Below are positions 202-52,019 of a stretch of 52,502 nt of DNA, one piece after another (the first letter of the stretch is position 1; the number at the start of each line of letters is the position of its first letter). Source of the DNA: Bacilli bacterium (GTDB lineage Bacteria > Bacillota_I > Bacilli_A > RF39 > UBA660); the NCBI GenBank assembly GCA_017434825.1, contig JAFSGC010000010.1, forward strand, positions 1 through 52,502, written 5' to 3'. The notes under the pieces were generated by a model. It had not been told where the DNA came from and searched no databases. It saw only the letters and a program-made list of their open reading frames with translations. The translations under genes were made by a program, and so were the position numbers.

Positions 202-2775
202 TTATCCACTAGCAAACGTTCCACTTCCAGCATTTGTATAGAATTTATCATTTACCAAATCGTACATTCCTAAGGTTCCCGAAGAATCCTGACAAGGAAC
301 AAAATATCTTACTAATTTATATTTGTCCCAAATCTTGGCAGAATAAATAGTTACATTGCCTCCGGCATCACCTAATGCACCATTTGCATTTCTTCCGAAT
401 AAAAATAAAGGAAGCGTATCAGTAAATGTACTAGAATTAAAAGTATGAAATATTGAATTATCAATATACGCAATATTATTATCCTGTTTAAATGAATGTA
501 CTACATTTTTTAAATCACTTACCGCAGAAGCTCCTTGGCCCCCGCTATTTGTATAACCATCATAGTAAAAATAACCTCCCGCGGAATTTGCAGTAAAATT
601 CATAAATGCTGATGTTCCGCCATAAATACTGTATCCACCAGTATAACTAGCAACCACATCTATCATCGTATTATTACTTGCATAATATCCTGTATTTATA
701 TATTGGGTTCCAGATGATTGCAAATAATTCACGGAAGCATATCCATCAGGTACACCTGCTCTTAAAGTACCGGTTCCAGCATTTCCATAAAATCTATCGT
801 TCACTAGGTCATACATTCCCACTTCGCCATACGGATTTATACACGGAACAAAATCTCTAACTAAAACATCACCTTCATATATTTTAAAATAATACATTTT
901 TGCATTTGCATTCATTTCAGTCGTTCCATTCGTATTTACCGCAAATAAATATAAATTAACCGGTGATTGAAATGCTGTATCTCCGTAGGAAACACTTGTG
1001 CCATTTGCAGTAGTTTTAGTGGGGCCCATCGTTATATGATAGTAGTCGGACGTGCCAGCATTTATATTTTGCTGAACATTATTATGGTCCACTCGATATG
1101 AACCTGAAAAATCAGCACTTAAAAAGGAGAATGTATTCGTAGTATGTGCTTGTCTTGCTCCAAATAGGAATTGGGTTGCTACTATCGGAAATTTAACTAC
1201 TGTCTCAATAGTTGTTTTATGATTAGGTTTATATCCTGTATCTATATGTTGTTTTCCGCTATCAGGAACCGACTCTATATACGGAACTGCTATATAACCT
1301 TGAGGTAATCTATTATTATTAACATGATATTTAAATTGGCCAGTCCCTGCATTTGTATAAAATTTATCTTCCACTGTATCATACAATCCTGGTACTCCTT
1401 GTTTATTCAATGCAGGAATATAGTTTCTTACAAGATTTCCATTATCAAAGATTTTGAACAAGTAAATTCGTGATATTGAATTATACGAAATCCCATTTCT
1501 ATCTAATGCATAAAGTTTCAGTGTAGTATAGCCCGTAAAGGTTTCCACAACAGTTGGTGTTACAGAAACAATCGTTCCACTCACGTCAACTGTCGCACTA
1601 TCTTTAGAAAAATCAATAAGCATACGTTGACCAACTGGCGAAGAACCCGTTGCGCTATATTGATAAGAACCATAAGAAAACCAGTGTTTACCATTCCAGT
1701 ACAAATATTCAAATTGGTTTGTTCCACCCGGGGTTCTTTGCCCAAACAATCCACAATCAGCATTTGAATGCACTACAAATTCCATTTCAGCAACTACCCT
1801 AGTATCTTGATTAGGGATAAACCCAGTATCTATATACTGGGTTCCTGTCGATTCAATATATTCTAGTTGGGTATAGTCTGATGGTAATTCATCTCCTGAT
1901 ATTTCATATAAAAATTCATCAGAGCCGAGATTCCCGTGAAATGTTTTTCCTATTTGATCGTATAACCCTGCTTTTCCACCTTCATTTAGACACGGTACAA
2001 AACTATGGATTAACTCATTTTCTTCATACACTTTAAAATAAAATAATTTTGCAGAAGAATTATATGTTACCCCAGCATTTTCATTAACTGCAAATATTGT
2101 TATACTATTTGGAGATTGAAACGCCGCATTACTATATGTAGCTGTCGATTGATTATTTACAGTTGCAGATGTTGTATCTATTATCACATGTGTATACCAA
2201 TCCGAGTTCACTTTACTGGTAGAATTTTGAACCGTATTATGATCTGCTCTATATCCTCCATTAATCGCAAAAAATGTTATTGATGATTTATCCCATGATG
2301 GTCTTCCACCAAATAACACTTGCGTCGCTGATGTGACCGGGAATATCGCTTCCGCTTCAACCTTTGTTTTTTCATTTGGAGCATATCCCGTATCAATATA
2401 TTGTGTACCTGTACTTTCTATATATTCTAATTTTGTATATCCTTCAGGTAAATAAACATCAAAGTATAAGTAGCATCTATCATCAGTAGCTAAGGCATAA
2501 TTAACATATTCATAATAACTATCATAATTAACTACTTCTCCTCCACTTTTACAATATGATTTACTTACATTTAATTCATAACCATGTGGCACTTCACTTT
2601 TTCGTTCATACTTTTGAGTTTTTTCATTATAAATATAAATTGCTAAAGCTTCCGGAGTTTTTAAAGAATATTGCGTTTCTTCTTTTTTATCATAACTAAA
2701 AAAGATAATTACTATTATCGATAATGTAAAAACAATTAATAATGATAGTGTGATTCTTTTATTTTTTAAAGACAT
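202..2775 (-). CDS. Membrane-anchored surface protein with four LamG-like repeats
   Basis: 857 aa. An N-terminal hydrophobic segment (about residues 9-27) is followed by Lys/Asp, consistent with a signal anchor, so the rest should be outside the cell. A linker to about residue 108 precedes four tandem modules of about 180-195 residues starting near 109, 297, 491 and 678. Each opens with a form of LEYIESTGTQYIDTGY and closes with a form of FVPC-(N)-G-LYD-FY-NAGTG. This module is common in adhesin-like and phage-tail-like proteins of gut Firmicutes and looks like a concanavalin/LamG fold. No sortase motif, catalytic site or phage neighbours are seen. A GAGAGG ribosome site lies 8 bases before the ATG. 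The gene is bracketed by the 103-148 and 2803-2848 repeats and has its own terminator, so it forms a self-contained cassette. A binding or adhesion role is inference. Confidence 0.8.
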   Translation of the reverse strand: MSLKNKRITLSLLIVFTLSIIVIIFFSYDKKEETQYSLKTPEALAIYIYNEKTQKYERKSEVPHGYELNVSKSYCKSGGEVVNYDSYYEYVNYALATDDRCYLYFDVYLPEGYTKLEYIESTGTQYIDTGYAPNEKTKVEAEAIFPVTSATQVLFGGRPSWDKSSITFFAINGGYRADHNTVQNSTSKVNSDWYTHVIIDTTSATVNNQSTATYSNAAFQSPNSITIFAVNENAGVTYNSSAKLFYFKVYEENELIHSFVPCLNEGGKAGLYDQIGKTFHGNLGSDEFLYEISGDELPSDYTQLEYIESTGTQYIDTGFIPNQDTRVVAEMEFVVHSNADCGLFGQRTPGGTNQFEYLYWNGKHWFSYGSYQYSATGSSPVGQRMLIDFSKDSATVDVSGTIVSVTPTVVETFTGYTTLKLYALDRNGISYNSISRIYLFKIFDNGNLVRNYIPALNKQGVPGLYDTVEDKFYTNAGTGQFKYHVNNNRLPQGYIAVPYIESVPDSGKQHIDTGYKPNHKTTIETVVKFPIVATQFLFGARQAHTTNTFSFLSADFSGSYRVDHNNVQQNINAGTSDYYHITMGPTKTTANGTSVSYGDTAFQSPVNLYLFAVNTNGTTEMNANAKMYYFKIYEGDVLVRDFVPCINPYGEVGMYDLVNDRFYGNAGTGTLRAGVPDGYASVNYLQSSGTQYINTGYYASNNTMIDVVASYTGGYSIYGGTSAFMNFTANSAGGYFYYDGYTNSGGQGASAVSDLKNVVHSFKQDNNIAYIDNSIFHTFNSSTFTDTLPLFLFGRNANGALGDAGGNVTIYSAKIWDKYKLVRYFVPCQDSSGTLGMYDLVNDKFYTNAGSGTFASG

Positions 2776-11708: not shown

Positions 11709-13115
11709 TTGAACAATACTATAAATATGAAAAATTATATAGATAGATTAAAACAAGAATTTAGTGAAACCCCCGATTTGATTATTAAACCAATCAAGAT
11801 AAATCCTCTGCATAAAATTTATGTGGTTTTTTTAGAAACTTTATGCAGTCAAGATAAAATTAATGATTATATTCTTAAAAATCTCACTAATAAAAATTTC
11901 ACTAGCAATTTAGAAAATGTTATACCTGGTGGTAATGTAAAAACTTTAGAACAATATGATTTATGCGAAAGCTATCTATATAATGGATTTACTCTTATTT
12001 TTGACAGCAAAAATATTTATGCCGTTGAAACTAAAGGCGACCTTACACGAAGTGTATCTACCAATGAAACTGAGCCCGCTTTAAAAGGACCTAAAAATGC
12101 CTTTGTCGAAAGCTACCAAACTAATATTGGGCTAATCAAAAGAAGAATTCGTTCTTCGCACTTAAAGACAAAAAAATTAAATATAGGAAGATTAAGCAAT
12201 ACTCCTGTTGGAATCTTATATTTAGATAATATTGTTAAACCAAAACTAGTAAAAGAAGTTTACAACAAATTAAATAGTATTGATTTAGATATTTTAAATG
12301 ACGTCGAAAGTCTTTTGAGTTATTTAAGTGATAAATCACATTTTCCTACCGTCATAACTACAGAACGTCCTGATAGATGTGCAGAAGCTCTAAGCGAAGG
12401 GAAAATTGTAATCATTTGTGATGAATCACCATATGCGCTAATTATACCTGCTTTTTTAGTAGACTTTATTAATCCATTTACTGATAAATACGCTAAAAAT
12501 TTAAACATTAATTTTACTAAATTGATTCGTTTTTTGTGTTTCTTTCTATCGGCGATTGTACCTGCTTTTTATATTGCCATTATCAACTATAATCAAGAGG
12601 CAATACCTACAAGTTTAATAATCAACTTTGCCATCCAGCGCGAAGGGGTCCCCTTTCCTGCAATCGTCGAATGTATCATTATGCTCGTGATATGCGAAAT
12701 ACTAAGAGAAAGTGATTTAAGATTTCCAAGTAAATATGGTTCTGCAATATCAATTCTCGGAGCATTGGTTCTCGGAGATGCAGCGGTTAACGCCGGACTT
12801 GTATCCCCAATTATGATTATAATTACGGCATTCACTTATATATCATCATTAATATTTAATGAAACTGAAATTGGAAACGCCCTTCGAAATTATCGATTCC
12901 TATTTTTAGCAATGAGCGCCTTTTTGGGCCTATACGGTCTATTTGTTACATTACTATTCTTCTTAGTTAATCTTGTAGACACCAGTTCAATGGGTTATCC
13001 TTATACATTCCCAGCATCTCCATACGATAAAAGTTATTTTAAAGAATTTGTTTTTAAAAGTAGAAACAAACAAAGAAGTAAAATGTTATCAGACAACATC
13101 ACAAAGGAGCAATAA
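11709..13115 (+). CDS. gerKA: Spore germinant receptor subunit A (GerA/GerKA family)
   Basis: 468 aa, near the family's 470-500. The N-terminal half is soluble with the GerA motifs TNIGLIKRRIRSS, TTERPDRCAEALSEGKIVI and DESPYALIIPAFLVDF. The C-terminal half holds about five membrane segments (roughly 275-440). It forms the inner-membrane germinant receptor with the B and C subunits that follow. The start is uncertain: a TTG at 11709 and an ATG at 11727 are both possible and neither has a clear ribosome site. The stop overlaps the next gene by one base (TAATG). The order A-C-B is the one often seen in clostridial gerK-type operons. Confidence 0.9.
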   Translation: MNNTINMKNYIDRLKQEFSETPDLIIKPIKINPLHKIYVVFLETLCSQDKINDYILKNLTNKNFTSNLENVIPGGNVKTLEQYDLCESYLYNGFTLIFDSKNIYAVETKGDLTRSVSTNETEPALKGPKNAFVESYQTNIGLIKRRIRSSHLKTKKLNIGRLSNTPVGILYLDNIVKPKLVKEVYNKLNSIDLDILNDVESLLSYLSDKSHFPTVITTERPDRCAEALSEGKIVIICDESPYALIIPAFLVDFINPFTDKYAKNLNINFTKLIRFLCFFLSAIVPAFYIAIINYNQEAIPTSLIINFAIQREGVPFPAIVECIIMLVICEILRESDLRFPSKYGSAISILGALVLGDAAVNAGLVSPIMIIITAFTYISSLIFNETEIGNALRNYRFLFLAMSAFLGLYGLFVTLLFFLVNLVDTSSMGYPYTFPASPYDKSYFKEFVFKSRNKQRSKMLSDNITKEQ

Positions 13116-14188
13116 TGAAAAAAGTTATCTTAATAATAATGTTACTATTAATGACTGGATGCTACGATTACGTTGAAATAAACGATCTATCATTTGTATC
13201 GTGCATTGGAATTGATTATGAAAATGATAGTTATAAATTAACCTATGAAATATTAAACGATACAAAAACAGGTTCAGAACAAGCTTCACAAAAGGGATAT
13301 ACAGTAAATGGGAGTGGAAAATCTTTAGCTAAAGCATTTAATAACATATCTTTAAACATTGCTAAAAAACCCTATTTTTATCATTTAAAAGCAATCGTAA
13401 TCTCTGAAGATGTAGCTAAAGACCATATGAAAGAATTAATTGAATTTGTAACCAGAGATCCTGAAATTAGAAACGGTTTTTATTTAGTGGTTGCCAAAGA
13501 TGTTAGCGCAAAAGAAATAGTTGAAAACTCTACAGAAAGCAATCCCATCGTTGGGAACCAGATTACTAAATTAATTGAGTCTAACACTAAAGGCTATAAT
13601 ATTACATTCTCTAAAGCGTTCGAAGATGTTTTAGAAAAGTTTTTAAATAACAAAATAGACCCAATTACCAGTGCAATAACAATTTCTAACAAAGAATTAA
13701 AAGCTGAAGGTATAGCTACTTTTCAAGATTTTGATTATGTTTATACTCTTTCAGCCCAAGACTCATCCTATCTTAATCTTTTATTAAATGAACAGACAAA
13801 CTTTTTAGTCTCTAGAAAGTATGACGATAAAGAAGTCATCATCAATATCGCAGATGGTAAGTCAGATTATAATTTTGAAAATAAGACAATAACAATAGAT
13901 ATTAGCATCGAAGGTGAAATCCGAGAAAATATGCCTGAATTTAATCTCAGAAAAGAACAAACATACATTGATTTGGCCAATGATTTTGAAAAAACTATTA
14001 AAAGCGATATTGAAGATTTACTTTCATCACTAACTAAAGAAAATCTTGATGTTCTAGGATTAGAAAATATGTATTATAAAAAAACAAGAAAAGAAAATGA
14101 CTCAATATTAAAATATTACAATATAAAGGTAAATGTTAACTTAGAAATCAATAAAAAAGGGTTAATATTTGAGGTGGAATATGAATAA
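13115..14188 (+). CDS. gerKC: Spore germinant receptor lipoprotein subunit C
   Basis: 357 aa. A lipoprotein signal ends in LMTGC with the lipid-attachment Cys at residue 16, followed by YDYVEINDLSFVSCIGIDY, the typical opening of Ger(x)C proteins. The C-terminal region has the family's long helix and a strand pattern ending near KKGLIFEVEYE. It is anchored to the spore inner membrane as the C component of the receptor. It overlaps gerKA by one base and gerKB by eight, so the three are translationally coupled. An AAAGGAGC ribosome site is present. Confidence 0.9.
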   Translation: MKKVILIIMLLLMTGCYDYVEINDLSFVSCIGIDYENDSYKLTYEILNDTKTGSEQASQKGYTVNGSGKSLAKAFNNISLNIAKKPYFYHLKAIVISEDVAKDHMKELIEFVTRDPEIRNGFYLVVAKDVSAKEIVENSTESNPIVGNQITKLIESNTKGYNITFSKAFEDVLEKFLNNKIDPITSAITISNKELKAEGIATFQDFDYVYTLSAQDSSYLNLLLNEQTNFLVSRKYDDKEVIINIADGKSDYNFENKTITIDISIEGEIRENMPEFNLRKEQTYIDLANDFEKTIKSDIEDLLSSLTKENLDVLGLENMYYKKTRKENDSILKYYNIKVNVNLEINKKGLIFEVEYE

Positions 14189-15134
14189 AGAACATTTTAG
14201 TTTGGTGTATTTTTTATCAAGACCATTATTTTTAGGAATCGCATTTTCACTTCTTTTTAACCAAAGTGGTAGCGATGCAATTATTGCTTGTTTGCTAGGA
14301 ACACTACTTGGAATTGGATTAATCTGGTTTATCAACAAAATGAACTTTTCTAAAGATAATTTCAAAATAATACAGCTTATTATTTATATATATCTTCTTG
14401 TGTTATCAATCATGGTCTTAGAGGCATTTATTAGTTCTTTCTTTCTAACTACTACACCGAAATTACTTATTATTGCGCCTTCCATTATTCTTTGTTTATA
14501 TGCTTCTTTTAAGAAGATGAAAACTATTAAAAGAACTACTTTTCTTTTATTTTTCTTAAGTATTACTATTTTTTCTATTGCAGCGCTCTCTTTAGGTAAT
14601 TTCTTTACTATCAGCAACATAACGCCCCTTTTCACACATAAAACAACAAACATTTTAAAGTCTGCAGTAGTTTTTGCTTCACTTTCTGCTTGTCCTAATA
14701 TTCTTTTAAAAGAAGAAAACATTAAATTATCTAAGCACATTGGATATTATATTTTCTCTTGTATAATTCATACTTTAGTATGTACTATCATATTAGGCTC
14801 CCTAACTCCAAACGTTGCTCAAATATATAGTTTCCCAGAATATATGGTATTAAAAAGAATTAAGATTTTTACTTTTATTGAGAATATCGAAAATATTTTA
14901 TCCTCTATTTGGTATATCGATATTTTTGTATTCATTACTCTCTTGTCAAAAAGAATTTATAACATAATAAAAAGTAAGTTATTATTCTTTCCTATAGTTA
15001 TTGCCATAGTAATATTTACAACTTACTTTATTGTGGATGACTATTACCGAGTAATATTTTTATACCATTACACACCATATATCCTTTTAGGATTAATTAC
15101 TTTACTAGGAACCAGTGCATTAAAAAAGAGTTAG
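14181..15134 (+). CDS. gerKB: Spore germinant receptor permease subunit B
   Basis: 317 aa from the ATG at 14181, preceded by GAGGTGG. An in-frame TTG at 14169 is rejected because that ribosome site lies downstream of it. It is almost wholly hydrophobic, with about nine or ten membrane helices in an APC-superfamily permease layout, as in GerAB/GerKB, the subunit that senses the germinant. It is shorter than the usual 360 residues. It converges tail to tail with the next gene (stops adjacent at 15134/15135), sharing a hairpin. Confidence 0.87.
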   Translation: MNKEHFSLVYFLSRPLFLGIAFSLLFNQSGSDAIIACLLGTLLGIGLIWFINKMNFSKDNFKIIQLIIYIYLLVLSIMVLEAFISSFFLTTTPKLLIIAPSIILCLYASFKKMKTIKRTTFLLFFLSITIFSIAALSLGNFFTISNITPLFTHKTTNILKSAVVFASLSACPNILLKEENIKLSKHIGYYIFSCIIHTLVCTIILGSLTPNVAQIYSFPEYMVLKRIKIFTFIENIENILSSIWYIDIFVFITLLSKRIYNIIKSKLLFFPIVIAIVIFTTYFIVDDYYRVIFLYHYTPYILLGLITLLGTSALKKS

Positions 15135-15930: not shown

Positions 15931-16626
15931 TTGTTTTTTGAATTATTAAATATTTTAAAAGGGATGATTTTCTTCACCGGAAGCTACTCTAACACTGTAT
16001 TTTTAGAACCATTAAGCGAAGCTGATGAAGTAAAATACGTCAAGTTAATGTTAAACGGTGATAGCGACGCCCGAAACAAATTAATTGAACACAATTTAAG
16101 ATTAGTCGCCCACATTGTAAAAAAATTTGAAGTAAAAGAAAACATCACAGATGATTTAATTTCTATTGGAACCATTGGACTTATAAAAGGAATTGATACC
16201 TACAAGGATGATAAAAAGACTAAAATTACAACATATGCTGCTAGATGTATTCAAAATGAGATTCTAATGTATTTTAGAGCTAATAAAAAAAGCAACAATG
16301 ATGTCTCTTTGTCCGATTGTATTGGCTTTGACAAAGAAGGAAATGAAATAAATCTTATTGATGTCATTCAAGATAATACCGTAGATTTAGATGAACTAAT
16401 ATCAATCAAAGATAATCTGTCTGATTTAAAGCAATACTTGAATCTATTAACTCCGAGGGAAAAGAAAATTATCATTAAAAGATACGGTCTTAATAACGAA
16501 GAAGAAAAAACACAAAAAGAAATAGCAAAAGAAATGCATATATCAAGAAGTTATGTATCAAGAATCGAAAAAAGAGCTTTAACAAAAATCCTAAAGGAAT
16601 TTATAAAAAGCAAAAAAACATTATAA
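15931..16626 (+). CDS. sigK: RNA polymerase sporulation sigma factor SigK (pro-form)
   Basis: 231 aa. It directs late transcription in the mother cell during sporulation. The N-terminal 18 or so residues form a hydrophobic pro-sequence ending just before YSNTVFLEPLS, matching the place where B. subtilis pro-SigK is cut before YVKNNAFPQPLS. Region 2 (ARNKLIEHNLRLVAHIVKKFE, DLISIGTIGLIKGI, YAARCIQNEILMYFR) and region 4 (LTPREKKIIIKRYGL, QKEIAKEMHISRSYVSRIEKRA) are intact. The start is a TTG with an AGGATGTG site upstream, since ATG codons nearby are out of frame or too close to any ribosome site. The gene is not split by a skin-type element. Confidence 0.9.
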   Translation: MFFELLNILKGMIFFTGSYSNTVFLEPLSEADEVKYVKLMLNGDSDARNKLIEHNLRLVAHIVKKFEVKENITDDLISIGTIGLIKGIDTYKDDKKTKITTYAARCIQNEILMYFRANKKSNNDVSLSDCIGFDKEGNEINLIDVIQDNTVDLDELISIKDNLSDLKQYLNLLTPREKKIIIKRYGLNNEEEKTQKEIAKEMHISRSYVSRIEKRALTKILKEFIKSKKTL

Positions 16627-48758: not shown

Positions 48759-49295
48759 TTATATTCTATGTAAAGCAGATTTTTTCTTAGTTACAAAATA
48801 TACACCAGCAGCTAATACTAAACCGCCAACGATATAAGCATATGGAACTTCAGCACCAGTGTTTGGATTAATTTTACCTTTAGCGCCTTTGAATTCATAC
48901 TCGATCATACAATCTTTATCAGCAGCATTTTTTGTAGCTTTTAAAACCAATGATCCTACTTCAATTTCTTTGCCTTTAGCGCCTTCTGGGCTTTCAAATT
49001 TACAAACTACTGTATTGTTTCCTTTATCAGTTTGACTAGCAACAAATTCACCTGCATCTCCACATTTGAATTCAGTTATAGCACTACCATAAGTAAATGA
49101 TATTTCTACTTCTTCTACTAACTCATCTCCTGTAGATACAACTGATACTTTATAATCTTTGTTTACAGTCGTTTTATCTGTATTTTCTGTAGTTTTCCCT
49201 TCTGTAATTTTAATTGTTAATGCAGCACCAACAGCAAATGGAGCTACTAACAATAGCGCTAGAACCAATAAGTACATCATCGCTTTTTTCATCAT
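48759..49295 (-). CDS. Secreted cohesin-like protein with NPNTG cell-wall sorting signal
   Basis: 178 aa from the ATG at 49295 (AGGAG 7 bases before it). Signal peptide (about residues 1-26, ending VGA-A). A strand-rich module of about 110 residues with a YKVSVVSTGDELVEEVEISF pattern like cohesin/Hemophore-type beta sandwiches and two Cys pairs. The C-terminus is a sorting signal: INPNTGAEVPYAY, a hydrophobic stretch IVGGLVLAAGVYFVT and a Lys tail. NPxTG motifs are cut by certain class B sortases, and one is encoded 120 bp away, divergent. This is the only such substrate found in the window. Confidence 0.8.
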   Translation of the reverse strand: MMKKAMMYLLVLALLLVAPFAVGAALTIKITEGKTTENTDKTTVNKDYKVSVVSTGDELVEEVEISFTYGSAITEFKCGDAGEFVASQTDKGNNTVVCKFESPEGAKGKEIEVGSLVLKATKNAADKDCMIEYEFKGAKGKINPNTGAEVPYAYIVGGLVLAAGVYFVTKKKSALHRI

Positions 49296-49324
49296 CAACA
49301 CTCTCCTATCTTTATTATGTCTTT

Positions 49325-49351
49325 ATTATATCATAAAATTCTCAAAATCAA
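49325..49351 (-). promoter_or_regulatory. Promoter of the NPNTG surface gene
   Basis: Minus strand: TTGATT (49346-49351), 15-bp spacer, and an extended -10 TGATATAAT ending at 49325. The spacer is short, but the TG extension can compensate. Confidence 0.5.
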
Positions 49352-49421
49352 TATAAAATTAAAAAAAATATACTAAATGCTGTAAAGGTGTGTTATCATA
49401 ATATAGTAAGGTGGTTAGCTA

Positions 49422-50978
49422 ATGAAGATTCTAGTAAAGATTAAAGACGATCGACTATCTTTTTATAATAAGAAAAAATTAAACACTGAATACAAAAATA
49501 TGCTTAACACCAATGTAATAAGTAATGATGAATTAGTATTTAGTGATGAATATATTAAAGAAAACTATAAAATTATAGCTACTTTTTTAAGTGAACTTGT
49601 AAAAACATATAATTTAACTACTCTATCATTTCAAAACTTTGAAGTGGCAGCTTTATTTTTTCCTATTGTAAATAAAATAAAACACATATCTATAATTAAC
49701 TTTGAATCAGATGAAGTATTACCATATAAATTTTGTGAAAAGTTACTGAAATGCTCTACTATTAAATTTGTAAGTGCCCAGTACATTCCCCCATATATGT
49801 TTGAACAATTAGATAAATATGGAATAATTCCAGAATCAAGAAACGAAATATTATTTACATCATACTTTATGGAATTAAATGGACTTTCAACATACTCTTC
49901 TTTATTTTATAAATTTACAGTTTATCTTGATTTTCCTTTAAATGAAGATGATATAAAAGACTTTAAAACATTTTGTAAGATAAATAGACATGTTAAATCA
50001 ATTCATATTAATAATCCAAATAAGTTTAATCTCGAAGAAATTATTTATATTTTAAAAGAATATAAACATCGAAATGTAAAAATTTATATTCATGGAGATA
50101 ATCTATCACCTGAACTTCTTGATTATTTAAAGAAACATCATAAAAACATCAAGAAAAAATATAAGATATTCTTAAAGCTATCATATAGTAAGAAGTTTAT
50201 CCAAGAAAATATTGCTAGAGAAACCAATAATAATATTTTAAGAATGTGCGGATTATTGATGCTTGCAATGGCACTATTCTCTATCGGATTCATATTCTTT
50301 GATAATTATCAATCAATGAAACAAGTAGCTCAAATCCAAAAAGAAATCGAAGAAGTTATTATTGCTACCAATCCTGAAGAAATTATTGAAAATCTTGAAA
50401 CAAATGACAAAGTCATTGTAAACAACTATATTGCTTCTCTAACATCTATTAATCCTGATGCTGTAGGTTGGTTAAAAGTTAATAATACAAATATTGACTA
50501 TGCTATTCTTCAGTCAAATGATAACGAATATTATTTAAACCATAATATATATAACCAAGATGACCCAACCGGTTGGTTGTTCTTGGACTATGAAAACAAC
50601 GCAGATGAAGTTGATGACAACACCATTATTTATGGACACAATCGATTAATTAATGGTGTAATGTTTGGTACATTAAATAGAACTCTATATAAAAGTTGGT
50701 ACACTAATCCAGAAAATCAAATAATCAGTTATGAAACTATGTATGGATCATATAAATATAAAATATTCTCTATATATGTTGTCCCTACTACCAGCGATTA
50801 TATTATGACTTCATTTGAGACTCCTGAAGATAAATTAAAATTTCTAGATACCATAAAATCACGAAGTATTCATAATTTTGGAATCGAATTAGATTTAAAC
50901 AGTAAAGTTCTTACTCTATCTACATGTCAAAGTGATACAAGTCGTTTAGTAGTTCATGGGGTTTTAATCGAAGAATAA
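49422..50978 (+). CDS. Class B sortase with large N-terminal cytoplasmic domain
   Basis: 518 aa, twice the usual 200-250. Residues 1-270 are soluble, without signal, and lie before the single membrane segment (about 273-293), so they should be in the cytoplasm. They show short strands at about 20-35 residue steps (LTTLSFQN, IKHISIINFES, TIKFVSAQY, VKSIHINNPN, VKIYIHGDN), suggesting an LRR-like solenoid. A helical linker (about 295-340) leads to the sortase domain: VGWLKVNNTNIDYAI, catalytic His406 in YGHN, Cys502 in TLSTC and Arg508 in TSRLVVHG, complete. It would link surface proteins to the wall. AAGGTGG ribosome site. Divergent from the NPNTG protein, a likely substrate. Confidence 0.87.
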   Translation: MKILVKIKDDRLSFYNKKKLNTEYKNMLNTNVISNDELVFSDEYIKENYKIIATFLSELVKTYNLTTLSFQNFEVAALFFPIVNKIKHISIINFESDEVLPYKFCEKLLKCSTIKFVSAQYIPPYMFEQLDKYGIIPESRNEILFTSYFMELNGLSTYSSLFYKFTVYLDFPLNEDDIKDFKTFCKINRHVKSIHINNPNKFNLEEIIYILKEYKHRNVKIYIHGDNLSPELLDYLKKHHKNIKKKYKIFLKLSYSKKFIQENIARETNNNILRMCGLLMLAMALFSIGFIFFDNYQSMKQVAQIQKEIEEVIIATNPEEIIENLETNDKVIVNNYIASLTSINPDAVGWLKVNNTNIDYAILQSNDNEYYLNHNIYNQDDPTGWLFLDYENNADEVDDNTIIYGHNRLINGVMFGTLNRTLYKSWYTNPENQIISYETMYGSYKYKIFSIYVVPTTSDYIMTSFETPEDKLKFLDTIKSRSIHNFGIELDLNSKVLTLSTCQSDTSRLVVHGVLIEE

Positions 50979-52019
50979 TTGATTATCTAATAATCTTTGA
51001 TCATTCGGATTCATAGATATTGCTATTAAATTATACTTTTTAGCAATATCTTTTTTATTGAGATAATATGAACATATTGCATATAAATCATATATTCGAT
51101 AATCCCAGGCATAGTTTTCATTAATATAGGTTTTACTCTTATCAGTAATCATAAATGCCTTATCCAACTGTGATATGGCTTTTTTATATTCCTTTAATTC
51201 ATAATACAAATATGCTAGTTCTACATATCCCTCTCTTAAATATGGAGCTTCTTCTATCGCCATTGTATACCATAATAGAGCTTCTTCATAATAACCTAAC
51301 GCCTTATAACTTCGAGCTATATATCTCATAGAAGCTGCTCTTTCATCTTTCCAAGTAGCAGTCTTTAACTTTAAATGTTTATGTAGCATCTCTATGCATT
51401 TTAAATGTTCATTATAATACATATATTCTCTTCCCAAATAATGAACATTTCGGTCATCTTCAGGATCTTCTTTTACACTAAGCTCTAAAAGCGGTAAATA
51501 GCTTCCGCGATTTTTGGTAAAATCTTGATAATGATTTAATACTATATCCTCTATAATTAATTCTTTTTCTTCTTTTAAAGGAGTTAGTACTTCATGTACA
51601 GGATGAGTCCAGACATAATCTTTTGTATGAATTTTATTTAAATAAAATACTGTCGCAGGATTACCATTTTGATCAAAAGACCAATTATAGTTGTATCTTA
51701 CCCGTGTATATTCTTTGCTATAATTATCTTCTAATATTTTTCTCCAACCAGGTACAAACCTTTCATCTAAATCAGTACACACATAAAGATCAGTATCATT
51801 AGGAACTAATTCCAAAGATTTATTTCTAGCAACATCAAATCTCCAAGGAGTTATTATTTCTGCTTTAACATTAACGCCTTTATCTATAAGTTTTTTTACT
51901 GTGTTATCTGTTGACCCAGTATCAAGCACATATATTTCATCAGCTTCACTCATACTTTCTACCCAATCATCCACATTATTTTCTTCATTTTTACATATTG
52001 CATAAACGCAAATTTTCAT
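50964..52019 (-). CDS. Family 2 glycosyltransferase with TPR repeats
   Basis: 351 aa. GT-A fold at residues 1-200: ICVYAICKNEENNVDDWV, YVLDTGSTDNTV and a metal-binding DxD (CTDLDER). The C-terminal 150 residues are TPR-like helix pairs (MRYIARSYKALGYYEEALLWYTMAIEEAPYLREG, then LAYLYYELKEYKKAISQLDKA). It likely adds a sugar to a protein or polymer in the cytoplasm. It overlaps the sortase end by 15 bases and is divergent from the collagen-like gene, so exosporium glycosylation is a reasonable inference. Confidence 0.85.
   Translation of the reverse strand: MKICVYAICKNEENNVDDWVESMSEADEIYVLDTGSTDNTVKKLIDKGVNVKAEIITPWRFDVARNKSLELVPNDTDLYVCTDLDERFVPGWRKILEDNYSKEYTRVRYNYNWSFDQNGNPATVFYLNKIHTKDYVWTHPVHEVLTPLKEEKELIIEDIVLNHYQDFTKNRGSYLPLLELSVKEDPEDDRNVHYLGREYMYYNEHLKCIEMLHKHLKLKTATWKDERAASMRYIARSYKALGYYEEALLWYTMAIEEAPYLREGYVELAYLYYELKEYKKAISQLDKAFMITDKSKTYINENYAWDYRIYDLYAICSYYLNKKDIAKKYNLIAISMNPNDQRLLDNQLFFD

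Follow-up and report, generated by a model that had tools for sequence, protein, structure and literature searches.

The closest described relatives of the enzyme analyzed here are the class B sortases (SrtB) of S. aureus, B. anthracis, L. monocytogenes and C. difficile, with which it shares the catalytic domain, the catalytic triad, the N-terminal membrane helix and a linked NPxT-type signal. In the known SrtB proteins the N-terminus preceding the membrane anchor is short; the C. difficile enzyme was made soluble by removal of 26 residues (PMC4155245). The tail of the sorting signal is normally described merely as positively charged (PMC4155245, PMC5569036). In two other systems, EpsH/PEP-CTERM (PMC1569441) and rhombosortase/GlyGly-CTERM (PMC3237569), a sorting enzyme co-occurs with a C-terminal signal carried by unrelated proteins; there, the signature is a short motif located before a helix.

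The sortase described below is encoded in a 52 502 nt stretch of DNA from a Bacilli bacterium (we refer to the whole of this stretch as the window). It differs from the known SrtB proteins in having about 270 conserved residues before the membrane helix and in its linked signal, where NPxTG is followed by A or S and the tail has a defined end. As in the EpsH and rhombosortase systems, the enzyme co-occurs with a C-terminal signal of unrelated proteins; unlike in those systems, an extra conserved element forms the extreme C-terminus, which faces the cytoplasm, and the enzyme has an extra, predicted cytoplasmic, domain. RF39-type Bacilli reportedly retain most of the peptidoglycan genes, and srtA/B are absent from the related orders RFN20 and ML615J-28, not from RF39 (PMC10868615).

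Our searches of open-licence literature produced no paper joining a class B sortase with a leucine-rich repeat (LRR) and a cytoplasmic domain, while a search for sortases with an ‘N-terminal cytoplasmic domain’ returned unrelated papers only. The statement of the first-pass annotation that it knew of no such named sortase is thus supported: a sortase with a large folded domain predicted to be cytoplasmic has no earlier description in the open literature searched.

The sortase gene and its catalytic domain

The sortase open reading frame (Table 1) is complete, with 518 codons and an ATG start, exactly as it was delimited in the first-pass annotation. The start residue is common to most relatives, each of them having a GGTGG/GGAG-type site. 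An internal start near residue 260, which had been named in the first-pass annotation as a refuting outcome, is ruled out by the conservation of residues 1–270 and by the ribosome-binding site present at the ATG.

In the orthologous sortases of loci L027/L085, L063, L030 and L031/L080 no in-frame ATG, GTG or TTG codon follows the upstream stop until the conserved start position is reached, and this position is occupied by an ATT or ATC codon 3′ of the GGTGG site. The predicted start of these orthologues is a rare one of the infC kind, found in at least two clades. At the other end of the window gene, the 3′-end of a gene for a glycosyltransferase-2-like protein with TPR repeats (50964–52019, minus strand) overlaps the 3′-end of the sortase gene by 15 bp.

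Table 1. Coordinates of the sortase locus, given as positions in the window
Feature	Position	Strand	Evidence or conservation
Partner gene, encoding an NPxTG-anchored secreted surface protein of about 180 aa (proposed substrate)	48759..49301	-	Signal peptide in sequence; anchor models
Cytoplasmic C-terminal tail of partner, KKKSALHRI-COOH	48762..48788	-	Family consensus K-x-[MIL]-[YHF]-[KHR]-[IV]
Sortase motif of partner, NPNTG	48855..48869	-	Signal alignment
Intergenic region (divergent promoters); -10-like boxes conserved on both strands	49302..49421	.	Alignment of 16 relatives
Ribosome-binding site AAGGTGG, 7 nt 5′ of ATG	49408..49414	+	GGTGG/GGAG-type site kept at the equivalent start in most relatives
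Sortase CDS, 518 aa: cytoplasmic N-domain (predicted), transmembrane/stalk helix, class B sortase domain	49422..50978	+	Full length kept in 58 relatives
N-domain, residues 1–256, alternating beta-alpha fold, no family match	49422..50189	+	Profile searches, predicted model
Transmembrane helix, residues 273–295, beginning of long predicted helix 257–315	50238..50306	+	Model and hydropathy
Class B sortase catalytic domain, residues 339–516	50436..50969	+	TIGR03064, PF04203, PDB sortase B by sequence and fold
Catalytic triad	His406 50637..50639; Cys502 50925..50927; Arg508 50943..50945	+	

The class B sortase model TIGR03064 matches residues 272–510 of the window protein (E-value 3.8e-52, 177 bits, with a cut-off of 153.75), and PF04203 matches residues 351–515 (E-value 2e-13). 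The triad residues His406, Cys502 and Arg508 occupy the positions assigned to them in the first-pass annotation and are invariant in the alignment of 30 relatives; in an alignment of 59 sequences His406 and Cys502 remain invariant, with Arg508 conserved in at least 90%. Among solved structures, those closest in sequence are the sortase B enzymes of B. anthracis, S. aureus, C. difficile and Listeria; structure 2oqw was matched in hmmsearch with E-value 5.8e-59. When the AlphaFold2 model of the whole protein (59 sequences, mean pLDDT 89) was used in a Foldseek search, the top rows were all sortase B (1qwz, E-value 1.5e-21). The motif NPNTG of the linked partner fits, as a sequence, the NPxT[GN]-type signal of sortase B. 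By every catalytic criterion tested the protein is a class B sortase, which sets itself apart by its N-terminal domain (N-domain).

The N-terminal domain

Mean pairwise identity among 30 sequences is 40% for residues 1–270 versus 53% for the sortase part. Residues 1–262, modeled alone with AlphaFold2, gave a mean pLDDT of 91 and a pTM of 0.80, which rules out an unstructured N-terminus. In the model, a beta hairpin region is followed by alternating strands and helices, with strands at residues 67–70, 91–94, 116–119, 136–139, 166–170, 193–197, 219–224 and 249–254. Thus, what had been described from the sequence as a large soluble domain before the membrane helix is predicted to be about 255 folded residues, conserved in relatives.

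The protein has no signal peptide and a single strong hydrophobic helix (the best 19-residue window begins at residue 275), located in the long predicted helix 257–315, which contains the membrane span and the stalk. Net charge is +7 in the 32 residues N-terminal of the membrane helix and -5 in the 32 residues after it. Because of this charge bias, the usual topology rules (hydropathy and charge) place the N-domain in the cytoplasm and the catalytic domain outside, with the single N-terminal helix likely to span the membrane between them.

Neither as a single sequence nor as 30 relatives did the N-domain match any Pfam family at gathering score. Four members matched PF16897, the best with E-value 6.7e-4, all below the cut-off of that family, and we took these matches as chance. 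The NCBIfam search of the window sortase produced coverage from residue 272 onwards and none over the N-domain; a search of PDB sequences with the N-domain gave nothing below E-value 0.05.

The first-pass annotation had called this region LRR-like. A weak structural resemblance was indeed observed, while membership in the LRR family was not: none of 30 N-domains matched any LRR family of Pfam at E-value 0.1, and LRR chains among PDB sequences matched at E-value 0.25 or worse. In the Foldseek search with the N-domain model a single match fell below E-value 0.001, and its TM-score was poor. LRR proteins (Skp2, COI1, NLRs, ribonuclease inhibitor) make up about half of the 50 structural neighbors listed in a second search; Z does not exceed about 7, a value that can reflect nothing more than a common arrangement, and the 50 are not dominated by any one known family. 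The two halves of the domain (about 6–141 and 145–260) align separately to the structural neighbors, each alignment covering a half-domain only. The N-domain model shares with LRR arcs of the ribonuclease inhibitor, NLR and Skp2/COI1 type the alternation of strands and helices with about 24–30 residues per unit; it is unlike them in its low Z, half-domain alignments, lack of a sequence match and lack of a detectable repeat. LRR arcs do lead the structural list; still, in the absence of a Pfam match and of an internal repeat family membership is not supported, and LRR identity of the N-domain is not established.

Profile self-alignment found no internal repeat beyond a cap motif of ∼10 residues, and a duplication of the whole domain was rejected, as the hhalign comparison of its two halves was not significant. 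The cap motif, [FY]-S-x(1,2)-[YF]-h-x-x-N, is found in the window sortase at residues 40–48, 147–153 and 255–263; the copies are about 108 residues apart, and the third one begins the membrane helix.

Pairing with a divergent surface protein gene

The partner gene is located 120 bp from the sortase gene on the opposite strand. Its product has in its sequence all elements of a sorting-signal protein: a signal peptide, an NPxTG-like motif, a hydrophobic stretch and a basic tail. It matches NF033846 with E-value 1.5e-4 and TIGR01167 above the cut-off, and its C-terminus, INPNTGAEVPYAYIVGGLVLAAGVYFVTKKKSALHRI, is a typical sorting signal.

In 36 of the 58 relatives the gene directly upstream of the sortase gene is transcribed divergently and encodes an NPxTG-type protein. 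The nearer (crown) relatives, L034–L070, all have this gene apart from L069 and two contig-edge cases, while most of the basal N-domain loci have no adjacent partner. Pairing of the N-domain sortase with NPxTG substrates, the check proposed in the first-pass annotation, therefore does exist and is strong, insofar as these proteins are proposed substrates; we infer that the N-domain sortase acts on them.

The partner ectodomains are highly divergent (about 16–40% identity to the window's partner). The sorting signals, on the other hand, align well: NPxTG (NKQTG in one group, xVxTG in a few proteins), then A or S, then usually xxP. The NKQTG variant, with Lys in place of Pro at position 2, is characteristic for a whole clade (partners in L039, L041, L043, L045, L046, L049, L055 and L059).

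A consensus promoter scan of the window region as a single sequence gave no scores above those of shuffled sequences. The -10-like box on the sortase side (Table 1) directly abuts the ribosome-binding site, so that the leader of the sortase transcript would be very short.

Distribution of the N-domain and other sortases of the genome

Within the window's bacterial family, 29 full-length relatives share the N-domain from the first residues. A scan of genome contigs with the full-length alignment revealed 58 full-length relatives with the N-domain in public genomes, nearly all of them metagenome-assembled Bacilli or Tenericutes from animal guts and similar habitats. The same kind of scan with the single window protein gave no match, and no stretch in the alignment of relatives was conserved enough for a pattern search.

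The domain profile detected the N-domain in 66 of 193 sampled genomes of the window's family. In a class-wide sample 22 of 395 genomes had the N-domain, all of them from the same family; one more class-wide match (G483, E-value 1.3e-4), partial and located in a 257-aa protein without a sortase, was judged spurious. Among the matches seen, the N-domain was always fused to SrtB. In the catalytic-domain tree, 59 N-domain sortases were separated from 22 short SrtBs by one change, with weak support (77). To judge from the sequences compared, the fusion of the N-domain with SrtB is an old family.

The window genome (about 1.07 Mb, 93% complete) also encodes a short SrtB of 349 residues without the N-domain (contig 13, locus L002) and, as its third member of this kind, a 240-residue sortase-like protein that is more distant. 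Like the window sortase, the short SrtB is of class B (44% identity over the catalytic domain) and is divergent from the gene of an anchored surface protein next to it; unlike the window sortase, it has about 80 basic residues before the membrane helix in place of the N-domain. Its neighbor has an NPNTA-D signal and ends with RKRFN, which is different from the window partner. This neighbor is 455 aa long; a gene of the ftsW/rodA type and a gene for a glycosyltransferase-type membrane protein are located downstream of the short SrtB gene.

Elsewhere in the window (11709–15134, plus strand) there are genes in a row for GerA, GerC and a GerB-like spore permease (PF03323 with E-value 8.8e-137, PF25198/PF05504 and PF03845), after which comes a gene for a sigma-70 family factor (15931–16626); their presence suggests that this reduced genome of ∼1.07 Mb has germination or sporulation genes. 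An 857-aa secreted-looking protein (202–2775, minus strand) carries several copies of a ‘LEYIESTGTQYIDTG’ repeat and has no Pfam match at E-value 0.001.

The carboxy-terminal tail motif

All partners, 36 from the relatives and the window's own, end with [MIL]-[YHF]-x-[IV]-COOH, beyond the membrane span and on the cytoplasmic side. Position -1 is I or V in 37/37, position -3 is Y, H or F in 37/37 and position -4 is M, I or L in 37/37; position -5 is K in 34/37. The filter by which partners were collected demanded TG, a hydrophobic stretch or helix and basic residues; the tail ending was not among its criteria.

The profile built from the linked signals also finds unlinked proteins with other ectodomains, in open frames of about 40 (at contig ends) to 1144 residues. 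Most unlinked signals in N-domain genomes have the same ending or a variant in which the aromatic residue is shifted by one position toward the N-terminus (KFPQV, VFRKI, KFNKI). The window genome encodes a further protein, not linked to the sortase gene, whose signal NPETG-A...RKNKNIKL is similar to that of the window partner. Beside short SrtBs, most signals are of the NPxT[GSNA]-D kind and their tails are different.

At E-value 1e-5 or better, the linked-signal profile, being trained on the linked set, had matches in 37 of 66 N-domain genomes versus 2 of 127 genomes without the domain (Fisher p 3e-19). For a fairer test, signals were gathered with the generic anchor models TIGR01167 and NF033846, both of which end before the tail; the corresponding stretches were fetched and their ends were read, so that the signals come from profile searches and fetched stretches rather than from a full proteome scan. 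A loose ending was defined as a hydrophobic residue at -3 or -4, with I, V or L last and one basic residue in the last five. Uncorrected for kinship of genomes, this ending was present in 27 of 67 signals from N-domain genomes versus 3 of 69 elsewhere (p 2e-7). Within N-domain genomes it was present in 22 of 31 NPxT-nonD signals versus 1 of 12 NPxT-D signals (p 3e-4, again uncorrected for kinship). As the genomes are related, the Fisher values do not describe independent events.

One genome (G183, 64% complete) has the tail and no N-domain match. It also has a sortase fragment cut by a contig edge, for which the best 40 BLAST matches are all N-domain sortases; since this fragment falls inside the N-domain clade, the genome was counted in the fairer test as an N-domain genome. 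In three other genomes, G140 (96% complete), G062 (86%) and G111 (85%), a single tail of this type was seen and no N-domain was detected.

Discussion

The observations are best explained, in our opinion, if the cytoplasmic N-domain recognizes the cytoplasmic tail of the substrate, as a second specificity check besides NPxTG; we would give such binding a probability of about one half. The proposal is based on the predicted fold and age of the N-domain, on the gene pairing and on the tail shared by 37/37 partners despite divergent ectodomains. It is based as well on the unlinked proteins carrying such tails, on the tracking of the ending with N-domain genomes and with NPxT-nonD signals, and on the NPxT[GSNA]-D signals with other tails seen next to short SrtBs, with the G183 exception explained by the sortase fragment.

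The sortase would be anchored by one helix, its external catalytic domain cleaving NPxTG-type signals of secreted proteins, while the hydrophobic stretch of the substrates would keep them inserted across the membrane, the short basic tail being inside. There the N-domain could bind the conserved carboxy-terminal end of the tail, of the crown type K-x-[MIL]-[YHF]-[KHR]-[IV]-COOH or of variants such as KFPQV-COOH. Reading of the tail would set these substrates apart from the NPxTG-D proteins, for which the ordinary short SrtB of the cell would be responsible; binding would make the enzyme more specific and might also retain the substrate there. Somewhat more tentatively, one could think of a two-sided address code for cell-wall anchoring: NPxTG would be read on the outer side, and a carboxy-terminal phi-aromatic-x-[IV] tail would be read by the N-domain on the inner side. 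Two class B sortases encoded in the same small genome could in this way each act on their own substrates. The first-pass annotation had suggested a ‘sensing or tethering’ module: the data point to tail recognition, which comes close to tethering, while for sensing we found no evidence.

We counted against tail reading the three genomes with tails and no N-domain (G140, G062, G111), the basal loci, which are mostly without a neighbor, and the N-domain itself, which is not clearly acidic (net charge +9). The tail could instead serve the translocon or another partner. In a rival view the N-domain is a localization or assembly module: it would position the sortase by binding to a partner in the cytoplasm or the translocon (SecA/SecY, a division protein or a wall-synthesis protein), and the tail would be read by this partner or not at all. 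In favor of this view, protein binding is the usual role of LRR-like arcs, the conserved N-domain residues, among them Asn188, Tyr255, Phe40 and Tyr44, suggest a defined partner, and most basal N-domain loci have no surface protein gene next to the sortase. We consider this possibility unlikely, albeit deserving attention, since it leaves unexplained a tail ending that lies on the same side of the membrane, tracks the N-domain across genomes and splits two signal classes within a genome.

The N-domain might also sense the tail, or a freed C-terminal fragment, with the purpose of regulating the sortase or gauging substrate load rather than choosing substrates. Such a role would agree with the arrangement of the sortase and partner genes: as expected for a co-regulated unit, they are transcribed divergently and share the region between them, in which boxes are conserved on both strands. 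The sharing of the tail by many unlinked proteins is a better fit to recognition, and Pfam searches found no regulatory domain, DNA-binding motif or phosphotransfer motif in the N-domain; regulation of this kind therefore seems to us quite improbable. We give even less credence to co-occurrence by shared inheritance in one clade; the ending would then have arisen as a basic anchor tail drifted, and the role of the N-domain would be an unrelated one. All N-domain matches, save the weak one judged spurious, do come from one GTDB-type family, and the statistics carry no phylogenetic correction; however, drift would not fix three positions in 37/37 divergent proteins, nor would it split NPxT-nonD from NPxT-D signals inside the same genomes.

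The tail of a sorting signal is usually regarded as a retention element delaying secretion (PMC5569036). If recognition of the tail by the N-domain is true, the tail carries information within the signal, which would help to explain how several sortases of one cell pick substrates with a nearly identical motif. For hundreds of uncultured gut Bacilli one would then have a prediction of which surface proteins belong to one enzyme.
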